Shown here piece by piece: positions 54,485-63,735 of a stretch of 64,000 nt of DNA. Each line of letters opens with the position of its first letter. The stretch's first letter is position 1. The notes beneath the pieces were generated by a model that had not been told where the DNA came from, ran no database searches, and worked only from the letters and a program-made list of their open reading frames with translations. Origin of the DNA: Mycolicibacterium nivoides (lineage in GTDB: Bacteria; Actinomycetota; Actinomycetes; Mycobacteriales; Mycobacteriaceae); the NCBI RefSeq assembly GCF_003855255.1, contig NZ_CP034072.1:62001-126000 (forward strand). The letters are read 5' to 3'. A program made the position numbers and the translations under genes.

Positions 54485-55280
54485 CGGCGTCCAATATCCT
54501 CTGTGGCCGCAGCCGCCCGCGCAGCACGGCCAGGAACGGTCGCGGGTCGGCGCGCCCGTCGCGCCGGAACGGCATCGAATCACGGGACGCACTGACCCAC
54601 TCGGAACGGGACATTCCGTCGAGGCGTAACCGGCGCCCGGCCCGGTCGGCGAGCAGGTGCAGCAGCAGAGTCCCGGTGCGCCCGTTGCCTTCGCGGAACG
54701 GATGGGTCTGGTTGTAGTCGGCATAGATTCGGGCCAGCCGGTAGGAAAGCGTGCCGTCGTCGATCTCGCGGCCCTCGTCGGCGAGCCTGCCGATCTCGAC
54801 GTGCAGTGCCTCCAGGGCATGTGGAATGCGAGCGCACAGGCCGAAGGAGCTGTCACCCTTGCGGAGTTCGACGATGCGCGGTTCGCCTGCCCAGGCGTAG
54901 ACATCCCCGAACACGTGCTGATGCAGCGACCGGATGTTCAGATCCGTGTCCTGGGCCCGGAGGTGTACTTGCAGGATTCTGCCGGCGGTCGCCACGAATT
55001 CCAGCTGCGCGAGCACCGTGGCGTCCTGCACGCCGAAGTTGTTGCGCAGCACTGATGTTCCCGGGATGAAATACGGGCGGCGACGGGCGAACACTCGTCG
55101 GCGCAGCGGTGGGGCAGCGGTGGGGAGATGCCGTCCGAGGTACTCGCCGAAGGTCTCGGCGCCGCAGAGCAGAGCAGTCAGGGAGTCGATCTGGTCCGGC
55201 GTGGGCCGCCAGCCCTCCAGTCGTTCGGCGGCAACGGTCTGGGCCAGGGCATGACGCTCAGCCTCGTCGGGCTCGGTCAC
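54477..55280 (-). CDS. Fic-domain protein with altered active-site motif
   Basis: Protein of 267 residues from GTG 55280, in a GTGA overlap with the upstream NTase gene. The Fic core is YADYNQTHPFREGNGRTGTLLLHLLADRAG. The catalytic His is residue 194, but the canonical HPFx(D/E)GNGRxxR ends with Thr205 instead of Arg. Fic enzymes AMPylate or otherwise modify target Tyr/Thr/Ser. The N-terminal half has a FGVQDATVLAQLEFVATAGRILQVHL segment and LNIRSLHQHVFGDVYAWAGEPR, as in the class where an alpha-inhibitory motif lies elsewhere; I do not find an SxxxE(G/N) helix. Confidence 0.85.
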   Translation of the reverse strand: MTEPDEAERHALAQTVAAERLEGWRPTPDQIDSLTALLCGAETFGEYLGRHLPTAAPPLRRRVFARRRPYFIPGTSVLRNNFGVQDATVLAQLEFVATAGRILQVHLRAQDTDLNIRSLHQHVFGDVYAWAGEPRIVELRKGDSSFGLCARIPHALEALHVEIGRLADEGREIDDGTLSYRLARIYADYNQTHPFREGNGRTGTLLLHLLADRAGRRLRLDGMSRSEWVSASRDSMPFRRDGRADPRPFLAVLRGRLRPQRILDADV

Positions 55281-56296
55281 CACGTCGAAAACGTCGAGGT
55301 CGACGCCAGGTAGTCGAGTTTGCGCCGGACCCCCGTGAGTTCGCGGCCGATGCTGCGCAGGGCGGTGCGGTCCTGCGGTGAGAGTTCTGACAATTCGACC
55401 CGCTCTGGGAAACCGGCCGAGTCGCCGCCGGCAGCCGGCCAACGCGCGGCCCGCACTCGCCAGCGGATGCTGGACCCGATGGCGTGACATTTCGCGAGCG
55501 CCCGGGCGTCGTCGGCGTCGAGGTAGCGGGTGCCGGCCGCCGCGGCGATCCGGTCGGCGGTGGTCAGCGCGTCGGATCCGCAACTGAGCGCGGCCCAGCG
55601 CGCGATGCGGACTACCGGGTCGACGGCTGCGAGCTTGATGTCGATGCGGCTGTCACTGGACGTCAGTATGCGCAGCCGGGACGGGACGTAGGCGCGGGCG
55701 AAGGTGGAGTCCTGCAGCATCGCCGCCAGCGCGGCCGGCTGCGCCCGGGCTGCGATACCGGCCTGGTCGCGGATATCGGGTCCGTCACCGACGGGAACGG
55801 CGTCGGCCAGCAGACCGATCATCACCACACCCCGATCGGCCGTGGGGTCGCCGGCCCATCGGCCGATGCCGACCGCCCAGTCCTGGGCCGTGCGGTTGAA
55901 CCGCACCCGGGAGGCGACCGCACCGTTGTCGTCGGCGCGGAATCCGCAACAGGCGAGCAGATCGTGGACGTGCGCGGCCTGGTGCAGGGCCGACTCCGTG
56001 GTGACATCGGGGCCGCGGACCACCAGCGTTTCCAGGTCCGATCCGGGCAGGGCATCCCCGCGGCCGACGCTGCCCGAGGCGTACCAGTCGATGTCGGGGG
56101 CCACCAGCCGCGCGGCGGTCGACAGCGCGGCGCGGGCCACGGCCGACCACGCCTCGGCGACGGAGGCGGCACCGACGCGGGTGTCGATCACGGTCTTCAC
56201 CGCATCGTGGGCTGCCGCAGCGGCCGCCACCAGGTCGCTCTCGCCGGCCGCCGACGCGATGCGCCGGTGAGCGTCGTCCAGCGGAGCCACAGCCAT
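55277..56296 (-). CDS. DUF294/GlnD-like nucleotidyltransferase protein
   Basis: Protein of 339 residues from ATG 56296 (the frame is open to 56416). WYASGSVGRGDALPGSDLETLVV carries the NTase motif GS-x9-D-x-E. The C-terminal helical region (PVVRIARWAALSCGSDALTTADRIAAAAGTRYLDADDARALAKCHAIGSSIRWRVRAARW) resembles the DUF294/substrate-binding part of GlnD-type proteins. First gene of an overlapping three-gene operon with Fic and a second NTase, all enzymes of nucleotidyl transfer. The target is unknown. Confidence 0.78.
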   Translation of the reverse strand: MAVAPLDDAHRRIASAAGESDLVAAAAAAHDAVKTVIDTRVGAASVAEAWSAVARAALSTAARLVAPDIDWYASGSVGRGDALPGSDLETLVVRGPDVTTESALHQAAHVHDLLACCGFRADDNGAVASRVRFNRTAQDWAVGIGRWAGDPTADRGVVMIGLLADAVPVGDGPDIRDQAGIAARAQPAALAAMLQDSTFARAYVPSRLRILTSSDSRIDIKLAAVDPVVRIARWAALSCGSDALTTADRIAAAAGTRYLDADDARALAKCHAIGSSIRWRVRAARWPAAGGDSAGFPERVELSELSPQDRTALRSIGRELTGVRRKLDYLASTSTFSTW

Positions 56297-56468
56297 GTCG
56301 GCGATTGTGACAGGCGAAGGGTCCGGTGAGGATTCGGCAACCCAATGCTTACCGCTGGCTACATGAACGAAACACGCGGGTGACAGCTCGGACACGCCAA
56401 GACGCTTATCTATCAAGTGACAGTTAAGGAGCTGGCGGCATCGCCCCCGAGCCTGAGAGAAAACGCCT

Positions 56469-58010
56469 ATGACCAGCAGCGCTACCGCGGCGGGACGTGA
56501 TGTGTCCGACAGTTCTGGCGACCATGACGACCTGGCCGAGTTTGGCTATGACCAGCAGTTGCACCGTCGGCTCGGCAAGTTCGAATCCTTCGCCGCCGGC
56601 TTCTCGTTCGTGTCCATTCTGACCACGATCTTCCAGCTGTTCGGCCTCGGGTTCGGTTTCGGCGGGCCCGCCTTCTTCTGGACCTGGCCCGCGGTGTTCC
56701 TCGGCCAGTTCCTCGTCGCGCTGTGCTTCGCCGAGTTGGCCGCGCGCTATCCGATCTCGGGGGCCATCTACCAATGGTCCCGGCGGATGGGCGGCGAGGT
56801 GATCGGCTGGTTCGGCGGCTGGTTCATGATTCTGGCCCAGATCGTCACCGCCTCGGCCGCGGCGATCGCGCTGCAGGTGGTGCTGCCGTCGATCTGGTCC
56901 GGGTTCCAGGTGATCGGGGAGGACCCGGCCCTGACCTCCCCGAGTGGGGCGGCCAACGCGGTGCTGCTGGGCACGGTCCTGCTGGTGCTCACCACCACGA
57001 TCAATTGCCTTGGCGTCAAATGGATGTCACGTGTCAACAGCGCCGGGGTGATCTGCGAGATCGTCGGTGTCATCGCGGTCATCGGAGTGTTCTTCACCCA
57101 TGCCCAACGTGGCCCACAGGTGGTGTTCGACACCGGTCACGCCGGCGGCCAACCCGGCTACGTCTGGGCCTGGATCATGTCGGGATTGATGGCGGCCTAC
57201 GTCATGGTCGGTTTCGGCTCGGCGGGTGAACTCGCAGAGGAGACCCGCAACCCGCGTCGTGTCGCGCCCCGCACCATCCGGCTGGCGCTGTCGGTCTCGG
57301 CACTCGGCGGCGGACTGATGATCCTGGGCGCTCTGATGGCCGCCCCCAGCCTGACCGACGGACGCCTGGCCACCGAAGGTCTGCCGTACGTACTCGACAC
57401 CGTGCTGTCCTCACCGTGGGGCACGGTGCTGCTGATCGACGTCTGCATCGCGATCACGATCTGCACCTTGGCAATCCAGACGGCGGCCTCCCGGCTGATG
57501 TTCTCGATGGCCCGCGACGGGCGGCTGCCGGCCTCATCGATCCTGTCCCGGGTCAACAGCCGCACCGGCACGCCGATCTGGCCTTCGGTGCTCATCGGCC
57601 TGCTGTGCATCGGGGTGCTGCTGGTCAACGTCGGCAACTCGGCCATCTTCGCGACCCTGGCCAGCGTCTGCATCATCTTGATCTACCTCGCTTACCTGCT
57701 GGTGACCGCGCCGCTGCTGTATCGCCGGCTCAAAGGCTGGCCCGCCCAACGCAACCAGGTCGATGCCGAAGGCCTGCCGCTGTTCTCCTTAGGCAAGTTC
57801 GGTGTCGTCGTGAACGTCCTGGCCGTGCTCTACGGCACGGTGATGATCGTCAACCTGGGATGGCCGCGTGCCGAGATCTTCAACCCCACCGGCGAATTGC
57901 CGATCCTGCAATGGGCCGGACCCCTGAGCATCGCGGCCGCTGTCGTCCTCGGCGCACTGTGCTTCCCGCGCGGCAAGACCCACCCCAAACCCGTCACGAT
58001 CGGAGCCTGA
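56469..58010 (+). CDS. APC-superfamily permease of the nitrogen operon
   Basis: Amino acid/polyamine/organocation permease of 513 residues with about twelve helices. Signature parts are FESFAAGFSFVSILTTIFQLFGLGFGFGGPAFFWTWPAVFLGQFLVALCFAELAARYPISGAIYQWSRRMGG and MVGFGSAGELAEETRNPRRVAPRTI. Position before two DUF1989 proteins, a urea-carboxylase-type protein and allophanate hydrolase suggests uptake of guanidine, urea or a related amide (inference). I see no guanidine-I or -II riboswitch in the 170 bases upstream. Confidence 0.87.
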   Translation: MTSSATAAGRDVSDSSGDHDDLAEFGYDQQLHRRLGKFESFAAGFSFVSILTTIFQLFGLGFGFGGPAFFWTWPAVFLGQFLVALCFAELAARYPISGAIYQWSRRMGGEVIGWFGGWFMILAQIVTASAAAIALQVVLPSIWSGFQVIGEDPALTSPSGAANAVLLGTVLLVLTTTINCLGVKWMSRVNSAGVICEIVGVIAVIGVFFTHAQRGPQVVFDTGHAGGQPGYVWAWIMSGLMAAYVMVGFGSAGELAEETRNPRRVAPRTIRLALSVSALGGGLMILGALMAAPSLTDGRLATEGLPYVLDTVLSSPWGTVLLIDVCIAITICTLAIQTAASRLMFSMARDGRLPASSILSRVNSRTGTPIWPSVLIGLLCIGVLLVNVGNSAIFATLASVCIILIYLAYLLVTAPLLYRRLKGWPAQRNQVDAEGLPLFSLGKFGVVVNVLAVLYGTVMIVNLGWPRAEIFNPTGELPILQWAGPLSIAAAVVLGALCFPRGKTHPKPVTIGA

Positions 58011-58013
58011 CCG

Positions 58014-58841
58014 ATGACCACCGCCACAACCACCGGCGCCCGCGACCACGCCCGGGCCCAGGCAGGCACCCTCACCGACTCCATGCCGGTCGTGCCGGCA
58101 TCGAGCTGGCCCACCCCGCCACAAGGCGTTGCGGCCGAGCGACTGACATGGGCGGAAACAGTTCCCGGCGGCCGCTACACCAACAAGGTGCTGGCCCGCG
58201 GCACCCGGCTGCGGTTGCGCGATCTGGATGGCACCGCGTGCGCCCACCTGCTGCTGTGGCGGGCAGACGCCCCCTGGGAGCGGCTCAACGTCGCCGACAC
58301 CGTGAAAGTGCCCTGGCAGGCCTATCTTTCGGCAGGGCACCCGCTGCTGAGCGACCAGGGACGGGTGCTGGCCACCCTGGTGTCCGACACCTCGGGCCAC
58401 CACGACGCCCTGTGCGGCACCACGACCCTGACCGGCAACGCGGCCAAATACGGTGCGGGCGAGGTGGAGTCGTCCAGCCCCGCCGGGCGGGAACTGCTCG
58501 CGCTAGCCGCCCTCAAGAACGGGCTGACCCGTCGCGACGTGGCGCCGAGCCTGTCGTTCTTCCACGGCGTTCGGGTGGACGCCGACGGCACGCTGGTGTC
58601 CACCGGGTCGGCCGGAGCCGGCACCGCCGTCGAACTGATCACCCATCTGCCGCTGATCGTGGCGGTCGCCAATACCGCCCACCCACTGGATCCGGCGCCG
58701 AAGTTCACCGTCGGCTCGCTCGAGGTGCTGGCCTGGTCAGCGCCCGGTGACCTGGCAGAGATCGGCGCCACGGTCAGTGAGCGCGATCCCGAATACCAAC
58801 GCGCCTACCTGAATTCCGACGATGTCTGGAGTGCCCGATGA
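58014..58841 (+). CDS. DUF1989 protein, urea-carboxylase-associated 2 / CgdA-CgdB type
   Basis: Protein of 275 residues. DUF1989 core: GGRYTNKVLARGTRLRLRDLDGTACAHLLLWRADAPWERLNVADTVKVPWQAYLSAGHPLLSDQGRVLATLVSDTSGHHDALCGTT. The larger of two neighbouring DUF1989 proteins corresponds to the former urea-carboxylase-associated protein 2. In characterised systems the pair forms carboxyguanidine deiminase, which releases ammonia from carboxyguanidine to give allophanate. It overlaps the next gene by 4 bases. Confidence 0.87.
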   Translation: MTTATTTGARDHARAQAGTLTDSMPVVPASSWPTPPQGVAAERLTWAETVPGGRYTNKVLARGTRLRLRDLDGTACAHLLLWRADAPWERLNVADTVKVPWQAYLSAGHPLLSDQGRVLATLVSDTSGHHDALCGTTTLTGNAAKYGAGEVESSSPAGRELLALAALKNGLTRRDVAPSLSFFHGVRVDADGTLVSTGSAGAGTAVELITHLPLIVAVANTAHPLDPAPKFTVGSLEVLAWSAPGDLAEIGATVSERDPEYQRAYLNSDDVWSAR

Positions 58842-59458
58842 CTGTCACCGCTGCCCACACCGTTGTCGATGAAATCGTCGCGCCCCGCGCCCCGTGGTCG
58901 AAGATCGTGCGGGCGGGGGACGTGCTCACCATCGTCGACCTGCACGGCAACCAGGCCGTGGACACGTTGTTCTACGGGGCGGCCGATCACGGCGTGCGGT
59001 ACAGCGCGCCGGCCACGATCGCGGCTCAGGGCAACATCTTCCTGACCACGGGATCGGTGCTGCGCGACAGCGACGGGGCACCGATGCTGACCATCGTCGA
59101 CGACGAGGTCGGTAACCACGACACCCTCGGCGGGGCCTGCTCGCAGGAATCGAACACCCTGCGCTACGGGCACCACACCAAGCATCAGCACGCCTGTGTG
59201 GAGAACTTCATCGGCGAGGGTGCGCGGTGGGGGCTGACCAAGGCCGACATCGTCAGCAACATCAACTTCTTCATGAACGTCCCGGTGGACCCCGACGGCG
59301 CGCTGGGCATCGTCGACGGCCTGTCCGCTCCGGGCAAGACCGTGTCGCTGCGAGCCGAGATCGACACCCTGGTGCTGGTGTCGAACTGCCCGCAGATCAA
59401 CAACCCGTGCAACGGATTCGACCCCACAGCCGTGCGGATGGTCGTGACGCGCCCATGA
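58838..59458 (+). CDS. DUF1989 protein, urea-carboxylase-associated 1 / CgdA-CgdB type
   Basis: Protein of 206 residues with IVRAGDVLTIVDLHGNQAVDTLFYGAADHGVRYSAPATIAAQGNIFLTTGSVLRDSDGAPMLTIVDDEVGNHDTLGGACSQESNTLRYGHHTKHQHACVENF. The His/Cys-rich segment resembles the zinc-binding part of the carboxyguanidine deiminase pair. It probably forms a heteromer with the preceding product. It is followed after 28 bases by the carboxyltransferase gene. Confidence 0.87.
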   Translation: MTVTAAHTVVDEIVAPRAPWSKIVRAGDVLTIVDLHGNQAVDTLFYGAADHGVRYSAPATIAAQGNIFLTTGSVLRDSDGAPMLTIVDDEVGNHDTLGGACSQESNTLRYGHHTKHQHACVENFIGEGARWGLTKADIVSNINFFMNVPVDPDGALGIVDGLSAPGKTVSLRAEIDTLVLVSNCPQINNPCNGFDPTAVRMVVTRP

Positions 59459-59486
59459 CTGACGAGCACTTGCGCGAGGAGCCGAC

Positions 59487-61481
59487 ATGACCGCGATAGA
59501 GGTGATCCGGCCCGGCATGGCCACGACGATCCAGGACTGGCCGGGGCGGACCGGGTACTGGCAGATCGGGGTGCCGCCCTCGGGACCGATGGACGACGTG
59601 TCCTTCCGGCTGGCCAATATCGCGGTCGGCAATCCGGAGGGCGCGCCCGGTCTCGAGGCCACGATGGGCGGACCGGCGCTGCGGTTCGACACCGACACCT
59701 GGGTATGCGTCACCGGTGCGCCCGCACCGGTGACCGTCGACGGAACGCGGGTCGCGCAGTGGGTTCCCGTCCTGGTCAAGGCCGGTCAGGTCCTGGACGT
59801 GGGAATGGTCGACGGCCCGGGCCTGCGGATCTACATCGCGCTGGCGGGCGGGTTGCAATCCGACGAATACCTGGGCAGTGCATCGACATTCACTCTCGGC
59901 CGGTTCGGCGGCCACGAGGGCCGGGCATTGGCCGTGGGGGACAAGCTGGAAACCCTCGACGCGGCCGGTGGAACACGGCGCCGCATCCTGTTCGAGGAAC
60001 AGCCGGCCATCAGCACCCACTGGTACATCGCGGTGACCGTCGGCCCGCACTCCGCACCGGAGTTCTTCACGCGCAACGACATCGACACGCTGCTCAACCA
60101 CGACTACCAGGTGCACTTCAACTCCGACCGCACCGGTGTCCGGTTGATCGGGCCGAAGCCGGAGTGGGCCCGCCCCGACGGCGGAGAGGCCGGGCTGCAC
60201 CCGTCGAACATCCATGACAACGCCTATTCCCCTGGATCGCTCGACTTCACCGGGGACACCCCGATCCTGCTCGGCCCGGACGGCCCGAGCCTGGGTGGTT
60301 TCGTCTGCCCCGTCACCGTCACCGCCGCCGACCGCTGGAAACTGGGTCAACTCGCTCCGGGCGCCACCATCCGGTTCGTCCCGGTCCAGGCGTCGGCGGC
60401 ACCCGCGCCGGCCACTGTCGGCCCCGAGCGACGCGCCTCGATCCCCGCGGTGTTCTCGGCCGGCGGTGACGAGGACGACGGAATCATCGCCGGCACAACC
60501 TCATCCGATGGCACCACGACAGTCACCTACCGCCGGATCGGGGACGACAACGTCCTGGTCGAGTACGGCGATATGCGACTGGACCTGGCGCTGCGGGCCC
60601 GCGCCCATGCGCTGCACCACGCGCTGGAACAACACCGGCCGGACGGGCTGATCGACCTCACACCCGGGATCCGTTCGCTGCAGGTCAAGGTGGACCCGGC
60701 CCGGCTCCCGCAGGCCAAGCTGGTGCCGTTGCTCACCGAGCTCGAAGCGTCATTGCCCGCCGCGCAGGACCTCGTGGTGCCCAGTCGCACCGTGCGGTTG
60801 CCGCTGAGCTGGGATGACCCGTCGACCCGGGAAGCGATCGAACGCTACATGCACGGCGTGCGCGCCGACGCGCCGTGGTGCCCGTGGAACATCGAGTTCA
60901 TCCGCCGGATGAACGGCCTGGCCTCGGTCGACGACGTGCACCGAATCGTCTATGACGCTGAGTATCTGGTGCTCGGTCTGGGAGATGTCTACCTGGGAGC
61001 CCCGGTCGCCACCCCGCTGGATCCGCGTCACCGTCTGGTGACGACCAAGTACAACCCGGCGCGGACCTGGACCCCGGAGAACGCGGTCGGTATCGGTGGG
61101 GCCTACCTGTGCATCTACGGGATGGAGGGGCCGGGCGGATACCAGTTCGTTGGCCGCACCACCCAGATCTGGAACCACCGGCACCCACTGGTGGCCCAGG
61201 GCTTCGAACCCGAACACCCATGGCTGTTGCGGTTTTTCGACCGCATCCAGTGGTATCCGGTGTCCGCCGAGGAGCTGTTGGACCTGCGTGCCGACATGGC
61301 CGCCGGACGCGGCCAGGTCGAGATCACCGACGGAACGTTCTCACTGGCCGAGCATGAGCAGTTCCTGGCCGCCAATGCCGAGGACATCGCGGCTACCCGC
61401 GCGGCGATGGAAGCCGCCCGGGGTGAGGAGCGCGAGCGTTGGGCGGCGGCAGGAGAATTCGCACGAAAGGAGTCTGCGTGA
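59487..61481 (+). CDS. Stand-alone carboxyltransferase part of urea/guanidine carboxylase
   Basis: Protein of 664 residues made only of the carboxyltransferase (CT) domain of urea-type carboxylases. The KipA-like half starts RPGMATTIQDWPGRTGYWQIGVPPSGPMDD and contains LGSASTFTLGRFGGHEGRAL. The KipI-like half contains GDDNVLVEYGDMRLDLALRARAH and GLIDLTPGIRSLQVKVDP. The end (ERERWAAAGEFARKESA) is where the full-length enzyme would continue into the biotin carrier domain. The ATP-dependent biotin carboxylase (about 450 residues, normally N-terminal) and the biotin carrier are both absent, and neither is encoded nearby. A partner elsewhere would be needed for carboxylation. Confidence 0.88.
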   Translation: MTAIEVIRPGMATTIQDWPGRTGYWQIGVPPSGPMDDVSFRLANIAVGNPEGAPGLEATMGGPALRFDTDTWVCVTGAPAPVTVDGTRVAQWVPVLVKAGQVLDVGMVDGPGLRIYIALAGGLQSDEYLGSASTFTLGRFGGHEGRALAVGDKLETLDAAGGTRRRILFEEQPAISTHWYIAVTVGPHSAPEFFTRNDIDTLLNHDYQVHFNSDRTGVRLIGPKPEWARPDGGEAGLHPSNIHDNAYSPGSLDFTGDTPILLGPDGPSLGGFVCPVTVTAADRWKLGQLAPGATIRFVPVQASAAPAPATVGPERRASIPAVFSAGGDEDDGIIAGTTSSDGTTTVTYRRIGDDNVLVEYGDMRLDLALRARAHALHHALEQHRPDGLIDLTPGIRSLQVKVDPARLPQAKLVPLLTELEASLPAAQDLVVPSRTVRLPLSWDDPSTREAIERYMHGVRADAPWCPWNIEFIRRMNGLASVDDVHRIVYDAEYLVLGLGDVYLGAPVATPLDPRHRLVTTKYNPARTWTPENAVGIGGAYLCIYGMEGPGGYQFVGRTTQIWNHRHPLVAQGFEPEHPWLLRFFDRIQWYPVSAEELLDLRADMAAGRGQVEITDGTFSLAEHEQFLAANAEDIAATRAAMEAARGEERERWAAAGEFARKESA

Positions 61482-63139
61482 CCCGCATTGCCGAGATCTA
61501 CCGCACCATCGCCGAGAGCGGACGCGACGAGGTGTTCATCCACCTGCGCCCGCAGGCCGAGGTGGAGGACGAACACCGCGCCGCGCTTGCCGGTGACGGC
61601 CCGCTGGCCGGGTTACTGCTCGCCGTCAAGGACAACGTCGACGTGGCCGGGATACCGACCACTGCGGCGTGCCCGGATTTCCGTTATATTCCCGATGCCG
61701 ACGCACCGGCGGTGACCGCTCTCAAGGCCGCCGGTGCTGTCGTCATCGGGAAGACCAACCTCGACCAGTTCGCCACCGGATTGGTGGGGACACGCAGTCC
61801 CTATGGCGCCGTGCGGGATTCCCGCCGACCGGACTACATCTCCGGAGGGTCGAGTTCGGGTTCGGCGGTGGCCGTCGCGCTCGGCTTCGCCGACATCGCC
61901 ATCGGCACCGACACCGCGGGGTCGGGTCGCGTTCCGGCCGGACTTCAGGGCATCGTCGGAATCAAAGCCACGGTCGGCCTCGTCTCCACCGAGGGTGTGG
62001 TCCCGGCGTGTGCGAGCTATGACTGTGTGACGATCTTCGCCGCTGACCTGGTCACTGCCCAGTCGGCGATTGCCGTGATGAGTGCAGGTGCGCCGCACCG
62101 TCAGTGGCCGGCCGACGTCCCTTTCGCCGCGCCGGTGACTCCCCGAATCGCGATACCGGACACACTGGCCGGGCTCGATGATGAATGGCAGGCCGCGTTC
62201 GGCGCTGCCGTGCGGCAGGCGAATGACGCCGGATTCGACACGGTCCCGATTCCCATGGATGACTTCTTCGCCGCGGCCGGCCTTCTCTACAGCGGCGCGC
62301 TGGTCGCTGAAAGGTGGGATGCGGTAGGGGAGTTCGTCAGCGCAGCCGGTCCCGATGCGAGGCTGGACCCGACCGTGGCGGCCATCATCACCGCGGCGGG
62401 AACGTATTCGGCGGCGGACCTGCTGCGGGACCGGTGGCGGGTCGAGGAACTCCGCGGTAAGGCGCTGGCCCAGCTCGCCGGTTGTCACGCACTCATGGTC
62501 CCGACGGCTCCCGAGCATCCGCGCATCGACGACGTCGCGGCCGACCCGGTCGCGGTGAACTCCCGGATGGGCCGGTACACCAACTTCTGCAACCTGTTCG
62601 ACATGTGCGCCATCGCGATTCCCGCGGGGGTGGTGTCCGACGGTGCGCAGTTCGGAATCACCCTGCTGGCACCGGGATTCCACGATGGCGTCATCGCCGA
62701 TCTGGCAGCCCGGTTCCTCGACGTTCCGTCGGTCGAGACCTGGCCGGAGTCGGGCGGCGCGCCGCTGACCGAACTCGCGGTGTTCGGTGCGCATCTGCGC
62801 GGGCAGCCGTTGGAGCATCAGCTCACCGGGCGGGGCGCGCGCTGGGCGGGCCCGATCACCACCGCGCCGCACTACCGCCTGTATGCGCTCGACACCGTTC
62901 CGCCCAAGCCGGGCCTGACCCGCGTCGGCGAAGGCGGGGCGCCCATCGTGGGTGAGCGGTGGCTGTTGTCCCCGGCCGCGCTGGGGGAGTTCCTGGCCGA
63001 GTTACCCGCGCCGATGATGCTCGGGAAGGTGGAGCTCGACGACGGCCGCTGGATCACCGGATTCGGTTGTGACCACATCGCTCCCGCTCACGGCCGTGAC
63101 ATCACCGAGTACCGGGGCTGGTTGGCCGCGATGGCCTGA
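61478..63139 (+). CDS. atzF: Allophanate hydrolase
   Basis: Hydrolyses allophanate to ammonia and CO2. 553 residues from GTG 61478 (AAAGGAG at 61466-61472), overlapping the previous stop. The amidase-signature triad is visible: Lys51 in AVKDNVDVAG, the cis Ser125 in YISGGSSSGSAVA and the nucleophile Ser149 in GTDTAGSGRVPAG, with the standard 24-residue spacing. The C-terminal domain (from about 400: GAPLTELAVFGAHLRGQPLEHQLTGRGARWAG...) is the AtzF-type decarboxylating module. This gene ties the operon to allophanate, the product of both urea and guanidine carboxylation routes. Confidence 0.93.
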   Translation: MTRIAEIYRTIAESGRDEVFIHLRPQAEVEDEHRAALAGDGPLAGLLLAVKDNVDVAGIPTTAACPDFRYIPDADAPAVTALKAAGAVVIGKTNLDQFATGLVGTRSPYGAVRDSRRPDYISGGSSSGSAVAVALGFADIAIGTDTAGSGRVPAGLQGIVGIKATVGLVSTEGVVPACASYDCVTIFAADLVTAQSAIAVMSAGAPHRQWPADVPFAAPVTPRIAIPDTLAGLDDEWQAAFGAAVRQANDAGFDTVPIPMDDFFAAAGLLYSGALVAERWDAVGEFVSAAGPDARLDPTVAAIITAAGTYSAADLLRDRWRVEELRGKALAQLAGCHALMVPTAPEHPRIDDVAADPVAVNSRMGRYTNFCNLFDMCAIAIPAGVVSDGAQFGITLLAPGFHDGVIADLAARFLDVPSVETWPESGGAPLTELAVFGAHLRGQPLEHQLTGRGARWAGPITTAPHYRLYALDTVPPKPGLTRVGEGGAPIVGERWLLSPAALGEFLAELPAPMMLGKVELDDGRWITGFGCDHIAPAHGRDITEYRGWLAAMA

Positions 63140-63156
63140 GCCGGAATGGGTGGCCG

Positions 63157-63735
63157 TCAGTCTCCGGGGACGATCAGCGAGACCATCGTCTCGAGCTGAC
63201 GGGCCATCTGCCGGTAACTCATCGCGCCCGTTTGGGCCTGCAGCAGTGCGCCCCAGAACACCGATTCCAAAGTGGCGAGCACCTCCGGCCATGCCCCTGC
63301 ACCCAGGGCCGTCGAGATCCGGCGGGTGACCTCGGCGGCGATCCGTGAGCGGACGTCGTCGACCATGTCGTCGTCGGTACTCACCAGCGCCTGGGTGCAG
63401 GCGCGGGCCAAGCGGGGCTCATCGGCCATCAACAGCGTGAGTGCCGTGAGCTGCTCGACGACTCGGCTGGTCGCACTGGCCGCGGGATCGATGTCGAGCG
63501 GCAGCTGAACCACGCGGTCCAGGTAGAGCTCGGCGAAGACCACCTCGATGGACGGGAAGTGTGCGTAGAGCGCCGCGGGTGCCATCTTCGCGCGTGCTGC
63601 CAGCGCCGGGACCGAGACGTCGTCATCTGTATCGAGAAGCTGTGTCGCCGCACCGAACACACGACGCTGCGTGCGGATGCGCCGACACTGTGCGTCGTGT
63701 AGGCGAGTGACCGTAGCCACCACTGGCCTGGACAT
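63157..63735 (-). CDS. TetR-family regulator
   Basis: Protein of 192 residues. HTH VSVPALAARAKMAPAALYAHFPSIEVVFAELYLDRV; the effector domain has LTALTLLMADEPRLARACTQAL and ESVFWGALLQAQTGAMSYRQMARQLE. It is convergent with the allophanate hydrolase gene (17-base gap) and divergent from the ferredoxin gene. A GGACA-N2-TGTCC dyad covers its own start codon and a second lies before the ferredoxin gene, so autoregulation and control of the ferredoxin gene are more likely than control of the nitrogen operon. Confidence 0.87.
   Translation of the reverse strand: MSRPVVATVTRLHDAQCRRIRTQRRVFGAATQLLDTDDDVSVPALAARAKMAPAALYAHFPSIEVVFAELYLDRVVQLPLDIDPAASATSRVVEQLTALTLLMADEPRLARACTQALVSTDDDMVDDVRSRIAAEVTRRISTALGAGAWPEVLATLESVFWGALLQAQTGAMSYRQMARQLETMVSLIVPGD

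Follow-up and report, generated by a model that had tools for sequence, protein, structure and literature searches.

How does a carboxylase function when its gene encodes the carboxyltransferase (CT) domain alone? Known guanidine carboxylases are single chains comprising a biotin carboxylase (BC), the CT and a biotin carrier (BCCP). By contrast, the window, a 64,000-nucleotide stretch of Mycolicibacterium nivoides (contig NZ_CP034072.1, positions 62,001 to 126,000), contains a guanidine-type CT gene with neither BC nor BCCP, both of which its operon lacks as well; a search of the genome did not find a dedicated BC. We propose that this gene probably encodes one subunit of a split guanidine carboxylase, which would be supplied with carboxybiotin in trans by a subunit that it shares with other enzymes, AccA3 being the most plausible.

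The CT gene and its operon

The operon lies at the right end of the window, on a single 6.9 Mb contig. Its features are as follows.

56358..56374, + strand: GlnR-box-like site ahead of the permease gene, an exact match to the M. smegmatis consensus Gn2AC-n6-GnAACA
56469..58010, + strand: APC-type permease of the urea/guanidine carboxylase system, 513 aa (TIGR03428, 895 bits; cut-off 740)
58014..58841, + strand: UAAP1, DUF1989, one subunit of carboxyguanidine deiminase (TIGR03425, 299 bits; cut-off 206; PF09347)
58838..59458, + strand: UAAP2, DUF1989, the other subunit of carboxyguanidine deiminase (TIGR03424, 336 bits; cut-off 285)
59487..61481, + strand: stand-alone guanidine-carboxylase carboxyltransferase, 664 aa (D253, D500, K521; TIGR02712 positions 447–1116, CT_A_B, CT_C_D)
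61478..63139, + strand: allophanate hydrolase, 553 aa, with a GTG start at 61478 that overlaps the CT stop (TIGR02713 above cut-off; AH_C)
63157..63735, − strand: TetR-family regulator, convergent (TetR_N)

The CT reading frame begins with ATG. According to Pfam, its product contains CT_A_B (304.8 bits) and CT_C_D (140.9 bits) and matches neither a biotin-carboxylase nor a biotin-lipoyl domain (PF00364 absent). In TIGR02712 (urea_carbox, NCBIfam, 1201 positions), the protein scored 975 bits against a cut-off of 1303.85. Since the alignment is confined to positions 447–1116, the protein is cut off at the domain borders and lacks BC and BCCP. Residues 477–1144 of the 1236 residues of Kluyveromyces lactis urea carboxylase (3va7) likewise align to CT residues 3–658. 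The BC and BCCP domains that belong to the definition of a guanidine carboxylase are thus absent from the chain, and the protein did not reach the NCBIfam equivalog cut-offs for PxpC (139.5 of 500 bits) or PxpB (32.4 of 145.55 bits). Positions 59487–61481 therefore encode a complete urea/guanidine carboxylase CT with no further domain, as the initial annotation had claimed in describing a gene that starts at the CT domain and ends just before the carrier.

The neighbours, previously described as two DUF1989 genes and an allophanate hydrolase with intact motifs, were equally well borne out. The operon encodes the carboxyguanidine deiminase pair and the hydrolase according to TIGR03424, TIGR03425 and TIGR02713, all above their cut-offs, with the TIGR02713 and AH_C matches scored on a longer frame from 61439. 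The hydrolase also contains three strings of the amidase signature. UAAP1 and UAAP2 share 4 bases, and the gap between UAAP2 and the CT gene is 28 bases, so that it contains no lost BC segment. Nor is there a remnant of a frameshifted BC upstream, and the CT gene overlaps that of the hydrolase. A homologue of the TetR regulator is present at 7 of 11 close operons, and we are unsure whether the regulator is a member of the system.

In gene order as described, the operon resembles msmeg_2184–2189 of M. smegmatis, which was published under a urea amidolyase annotation as a permease, two unknown frames, a 'urea amidolyase' and an allophanate hydrolase (PMC4222082). The same source reports that nitrogen starvation induces msmeg_2184, 2185, 2186, 2187 and 2189 by 48-, 13-, 32-, 3- and 4-fold, respectively, under the control of GlnR and AmtR, and that the binding of AmtR was unaffected by urea and different amino acids. 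M. smegmatis GlnR yielded a peak before msmeg_2184, with the motif Gn2AC-n6-GnAACA (PMC3662644). Gn2AC-n6-GnAAC was kept in every one of 12 aligned operon upstream regions, and the final A in 11. Taken by itself, the motif is not significant, with 2 matches in the window versus 1.38 expected, and the zero expectation of a 25-base GlnR-type pattern is no evidence, the pattern having been designed after viewing the sequence. No guanidine riboswitch was matched by Rfam in 55200–63300 up to E = 1.

Active-site residues and conservation

In K. lactis urea amidolyase, K1605 probably acts as general base in the CT reaction (PMC5770610). Guanidine carboxylases have been characterized by an Asp at K. 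lactis position 1584, and an Asp at 1330 distinguishes them from urea carboxylase (PMC11410670). According to the 3va7 alignment, K1605, D1584 and D1330 correspond to K521, D500 and D253 of the window CT, all of which are present. Moreover, each of the 79 CT-only sequences aligned from the clade retained all three residues (76 of these sequences are distinct, as 3 duplicate others). The Lys and the Asp at the D500 position occurred in all 67 full-length rows, including one truncated at a contig end, and the D253 position was Asp in 63 and Asn in 4. At 227 positions, conservation was at least 97% in both the 79 CT-only rows and the 63 Asp-type full-length rows, and none was fixed for a different residue. 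A further 18 positions were conserved across the full-length rows and relaxed in the CT-only rows. A loss of CT catalytic residues, which the initial annotation had named as part of a contrary result, was thus not found.

The CT is ∼62–70% identical to guanidine-type actinobacterial full-length forms (gca; TIGR02712 with Asp at 1330) and shares with guanidine carboxylase these three residues, the partners UAAP1/UAAP2 (CgdA/CgdB) and the allophanate hydrolase. It can also be aligned with the K. lactis urea carboxylase/urea amidolyase (3va7, 5i8i), with which it shares the catalytic Lys and Asp. Unlike that enzyme, it has Asp rather than Asn at 1330 and lacks BC, BCCP and the fused hydrolase.

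The CT-only state is not an oddity of one operon. Among 148 genomes of the genus, including the present one, 51 had a CT match. The 52 matches comprised 37 CT-only and 15 full-length forms, classified by open-frame length, with 42 also read in their surroundings and 10 on frame length alone. One long frame turned out to be CT-only when its surroundings were read (G056), and one genome (G145) contained both forms. In order-wide and phylum-wide samples, 77 of 348 and 16 of 396 genomes, respectively, had a CT match. The best 80 of 551 named loci, which are ranked by likeness to a CT-only query and thus biased upward in CT-only share and no census of genera, comprised 33 CT-only loci, 46 full-length loci and one cut by a contig end. 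All 33 belonged to the Mycobacteriaceae, Nocardiaceae, Gordoniaceae or Dietziaceae, which we group as mycolic-acid bacteria, and among the same best 80 the CT-only form occurred in at least 10 NCBI genera. This group supplied 4 of the 46 full-length loci: two from Mycobacterium and one each from Lolliginicoccus and Smaragdicoccus. A CT-only gene beside the DUF1989 pair, whose recurrence in mycobacteria had been put forward as a check, was found in Mycobacterium and in Nocardia, Rhodococcus, Gordonia, Williamsia, Skermania and Dietzia.

In a tree of 74 sequences, calculated by a quick method with no bootstrap, the CT-only rows of the family formed one clade of 46 (SH-aLRT 99). Its sister comprised 14 full-length rows (SH-aLRT 99), and the union of the two had a support of 87. 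This topology points to a single event, within the mycolic-acid group, in which BC and BCCP were lost.

Against 11 close operons, the dN/dS of the CT gene was 0.07–0.11. The corresponding values were 0.04–0.09 for the permease, 0.07–0.15 for UAAP1, 0.04–0.14 for UAAP2 and 0.10–0.17 for the allophanate hydrolase. The CT-only gene is under purifying selection and is no product of decay.

Candidate sources of carboxybiotin

When the entire 6.9 Mb contig was searched with TIGR02712, it yielded neither a second CT of the urea-carboxylase type nor a full-length enzyme, such as the initial annotation had allowed for elsewhere in the genome. The only other CT-like match on the contig scored 119 bits and was of the PxpC type, beside a PxpB-type gene. 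According to PF02785, the genome encodes five BCs. Two are pyruvate carboxylases (PYC_OADA, HMGL-like), and two are alpha subunits with a methylcrotonyl-type BT domain, each adjoining a Carboxyl_trans gene. The fifth is an AccA3-type protein of 599 aa with no BT domain and a Carboxyl_trans gene about 5 kb off, the Acc names being assigned here from gene context. In contig coordinates, the AccA3-type gene lies 4.6 Mb from the operon. The two pyruvate carboxylase genes are located at L017 5456–8848 and L020 5370–8798. The genome also encodes a free-standing BCCP of ∼75 aa (C1:4618734), related to mycobacterial TB7.3.

To extend the search to other genomes, we took a full-length relative, L074, and queried 54 genomes with its BC domain (threshold E = 1e-90; matches sorted by E-value). 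Of these genomes, 46 were CT-only members of the family, 5 belonged to a distant CT-only lineage and 3 served as positive controls. No guanidine-carboxylase-type BC was found in the 51 CT-only genomes. Their top matches, at most 52% identical and 414 bits, fell within the acyl-CoA carboxylase alpha-subunit range; the three positive controls all gave matches of 74–100% identity and 697–985 bits. An extra BC paralogue in CT-only genomes, also considered, was rejected on copy number: the mean was 4.89 in CT-only genomes (n = 35) versus 4.62 in genomes without CT (n = 13; Mann-Whitney p = 0.42). Genomes with the full-length form averaged 5.71 (n = 14; p = 0.0006), about one copy higher. These counts cover 62 of 64 genomes, leaving out G070 (73% complete) and G145, which has both forms. 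Overall, the unpaired BC-carrier protein of the urea-carboxylase type that had been suggested as a partner was not found in the genome, and the BC-BCCP proteins that are left belong to other enzymes.

Among these, AccA3 ranks first as a candidate, given that several separate CTs already depend on it in M. tuberculosis and that the other two alpha subunits adjoin their own CT. More specifically, M. tuberculosis AccA3 is common to acyl-CoA carboxylases 4, 5 and 6 (PMC11001197), and in pull-downs it paired with AccD4 and AccD5 and less clearly with AccD6, while AccD3 bound nothing (PMC4347857). The proposed arrangement would share the logic of these mycobacterial enzymes, in which separate CT subunits operate on one BC-BCCP alpha subunit (PMC4347857, PMC11001197). 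Against AccA3 stand its distance from the operon and the lack of homology between the window CT and the CTs with which it is known to pair: the CT of acyl-CoA carboxylases acts on acyl-CoA and is not homologous to that of urea carboxylase (PMC3199775). The nitrogen regulator PII has been reported to bind AccA3 weakly and in an ATP-dependent manner, with two tested carboxylase activities unaffected (PMC11001197), a report to which we attach no weight here. In a search for biotin/lipoyl domains, an AccA3-sized frame (605–623 aa) was present in 12 of 12 CT-only genomes.

With pathway steps and residue rules taken from the literature, the proposed route is as follows. The permease would import guanidine. 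A BC-BCCP protein from another locus, for which the acyl-CoA carboxylase alpha subunit AccA3 is the most plausible candidate, would load its biotin with CO2 using ATP, and the CT subunit would transfer the carboxyl group from biotin to guanidine. UAAP1/UAAP2 would then deiminate carboxyguanidine to allophanate, from which the allophanate hydrolase would free the remaining nitrogen. At the level of sequence, the CT-only architecture, its conservation, the retention of residues and the search for a dedicated BC, which found none, argue for this scheme. What we infer from them is that carboxybiotin is taken in trans and that AccA3 provides it. Since in mycobacteria and their mycolic-acid relatives the enzyme is often encoded as its final-step domain only, it probably borrows the biotin machinery of fat metabolism. 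Of the two branches offered by the initial annotation, a split enzyme or a biotin-independent reaction, the first is thus favoured by the kept residues, by the dedicated BC not being found and by the remaining BC-BCCPs of other enzymes, with AccA3 as the presumed partner.

It is unlikely that the carrier is instead the free-standing BCCP, charged by AccA3 or another BC, such that the CT pairs with a free BCCP and not with a BC-BCCP chain. A free BCCP frame of 72–110 aa occurred in each of the 12 CT-only genomes searched for biotin/lipoyl domains, and the free BCCP was the best own-genome match to the carrier part of TIGR02712, at 52.6 bits; its gene, however, is distant from the operon.

We judge it similarly improbable that carboxybiotin is supplied by pyruvate carboxylase or by a methylcrotonyl-type alpha subunit. 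BCCP domains in frames of the corresponding sizes were present in all 12 genomes; by BCCP frame length, 10 of these encode one pyruvate carboxylase and 2 encode two (the present genome and G077). In a clade of seven loci, UAAP1-UAAP2-CT lies 2–3 kb downstream of a pyruvate carboxylase gene in six (L083, L086, L089, L090, L125 and L126). The BC near the cluster in these six loci, examined as a split partner, was rejected as such, being that of the pyruvate carboxylase genes. This proximity speaks for pyruvate carboxylase, but in the loci viewed closely the intervening genes look by eye like ordinary chromosomal context (rsmD, coaD). For their part, both methylcrotonyl-type alpha subunits of the present genome adjoin their own CT gene.

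The CT fold is able to work without biotin, as in the 5-oxoprolinase subunits PxpB/PxpC (KipI/KipA). These have the CT_C_D and CT_A_B domains in common with the window CT and are two short proteins. That the CT protein runs a biotin-independent reaction of this kind is, in our estimate, slightly less probable again. In keeping with it, a PxpB/PxpC-type pair is also present in the genome, and part of the CT-only genomes lack AH_C. Three of six PxpB-type matches, 2phc, 3oep and 2zp2, were compared in printed alignments. The D500 position was Phe in all three; the K521 position was Arg in two, as it was in the PxpB-type protein of the present genome, and Lys, aligned across a gap, in 3oep. Lys at this position is thus not exclusive to carboxylases, and the Asp at the D500 position distinguishes them better from PxpB-type proteins. 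The retention of D500, K521 and D253 in every CT-only sequence, together with the match of the conserved positions to those of full-length guanidine carboxylases, disfavours a biotin-independent reaction for the clade, so this second branch of the initial annotation fared less well.

Finally, although full-length forms exist in the same genus, it is scarcely credible that the gene is what decay has left of such an enzyme, given the purifying selection, the intact operon with its overlapping genes and the occurrence in at least 10 genera among the best 80 of 551 loci.

Variant genomes, a second lineage and implications

A complete route to ammonia is not recognisable in every genome because allophanate hydrolase or AH_C is missing from part of the loci and genomes. 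In 25 of 45 fetched loci of the CT-only clade, allophanate hydrolase was not found in the mapped stretch, some of these stretches ending at contig ends. Six such genomes with an AH_C match elsewhere were fetched. Two (G088 and G050; L127 and L128) encode a close allophanate hydrolase, 62–67% identical, and the other four (G098, G004, G018 and G136; L129, L130, L132 and L133) gave a distant AH_C match of 31–34%. An AH_C search of the 37 CT-only genomes of the genus returned no match in seven (G016, G022, G069, G073, G086, G101 and G130), which are therefore without a recognisable complete allophanate hydrolase. Where the hydrolase is missing, allophanate may be handled otherwise, or the amidase domain alone may act. 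In the present genome, a second AH_C domain stands alone in a 143-aa frame (L131, C1:4736715–4737074), as it does in several relatives.

Some genomes of the family (code g2) encode a CT-only protein and, separately, a full-length enzyme. In at least two, G167 and G342, which were the two fetched, the full-length enzyme is of the Asn type (urea type). Since the two forms coexist there, the BC of the full-length enzyme might serve the CT-only protein in these genomes.

A distant CT-only lineage comprises seven loci.

L094 8031–9938: CT-only gene
L096 5169–7106: CT-only gene
L097 7970–9958: CT-only gene
L098 8219–10198: CT-only gene
L099 8113–10074: CT-only gene
L100 8111–10039: CT-only gene
L101 7975–9954: CT-only gene

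All seven loci include the DUF1989 pair and allophanate hydrolase, and six have a permease match, two of these being about 30% identical. The catalytic Lys and Asp are kept. At the specificity position, the Asp of guanidine carboxylases is replaced by Met (5) or Ile (2), which suggests that this lineage acts on another substrate. No dedicated BC was found in the five genomes of this lineage searched with the L074 BC domain. As these sequences fall elsewhere in the tree, the CT-only form would have arisen, or persisted, at least twice, a reading of which we are unsure given the long branches there and a warning that the tree program attached to them. A CT-like outlier (L095 7992–9974), left out of the counts for the CT-only clade, carries Ala in place of the specificity residue, with Glu and Arg replacing the catalytic Asp and Lys; no DUF1989/UAAP genes were found nearby.

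Tentatively, we extend the proposed split to a broader one, in which the AccA3 of fatty and mycolic acid synthesis may also charge a non-homologous CT. Lipid synthesis and the assimilation of guanidine nitrogen would then depend on one carboxybiotin pool, the second CT-only lineage possibly representing the same arrangement for another substrate.

In 2011, it was asked why CTs of the urea-carboxylase type outnumber their BC in spread, and it was proposed that such CTs collaborate with other BCs or catalyse another original reaction (PMC3199775). In its accessible text, that study covers two-gene CT homologues and full-length enzymes, and not the single-chain CT-only form. We found no published description of a CT-only guanidine carboxylase in the accessible portions of the open-licence literature, which is not proof of absence. 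The CT-only clade provides a clean test case: its CT retains every carboxylase residue, its operon is conserved and a BC dedicated to it was not found. If the present proposal is correct, it represents a new subunit arrangement for a known guanidine pathway. A real split would change the 'urea amidolyase' reading of such operons of the GlnR/AmtR regulon and would mean that carboxylases with differing CT folds share BC-BCCP modules, tying nitrogen scavenging to the lipid carboxylases.
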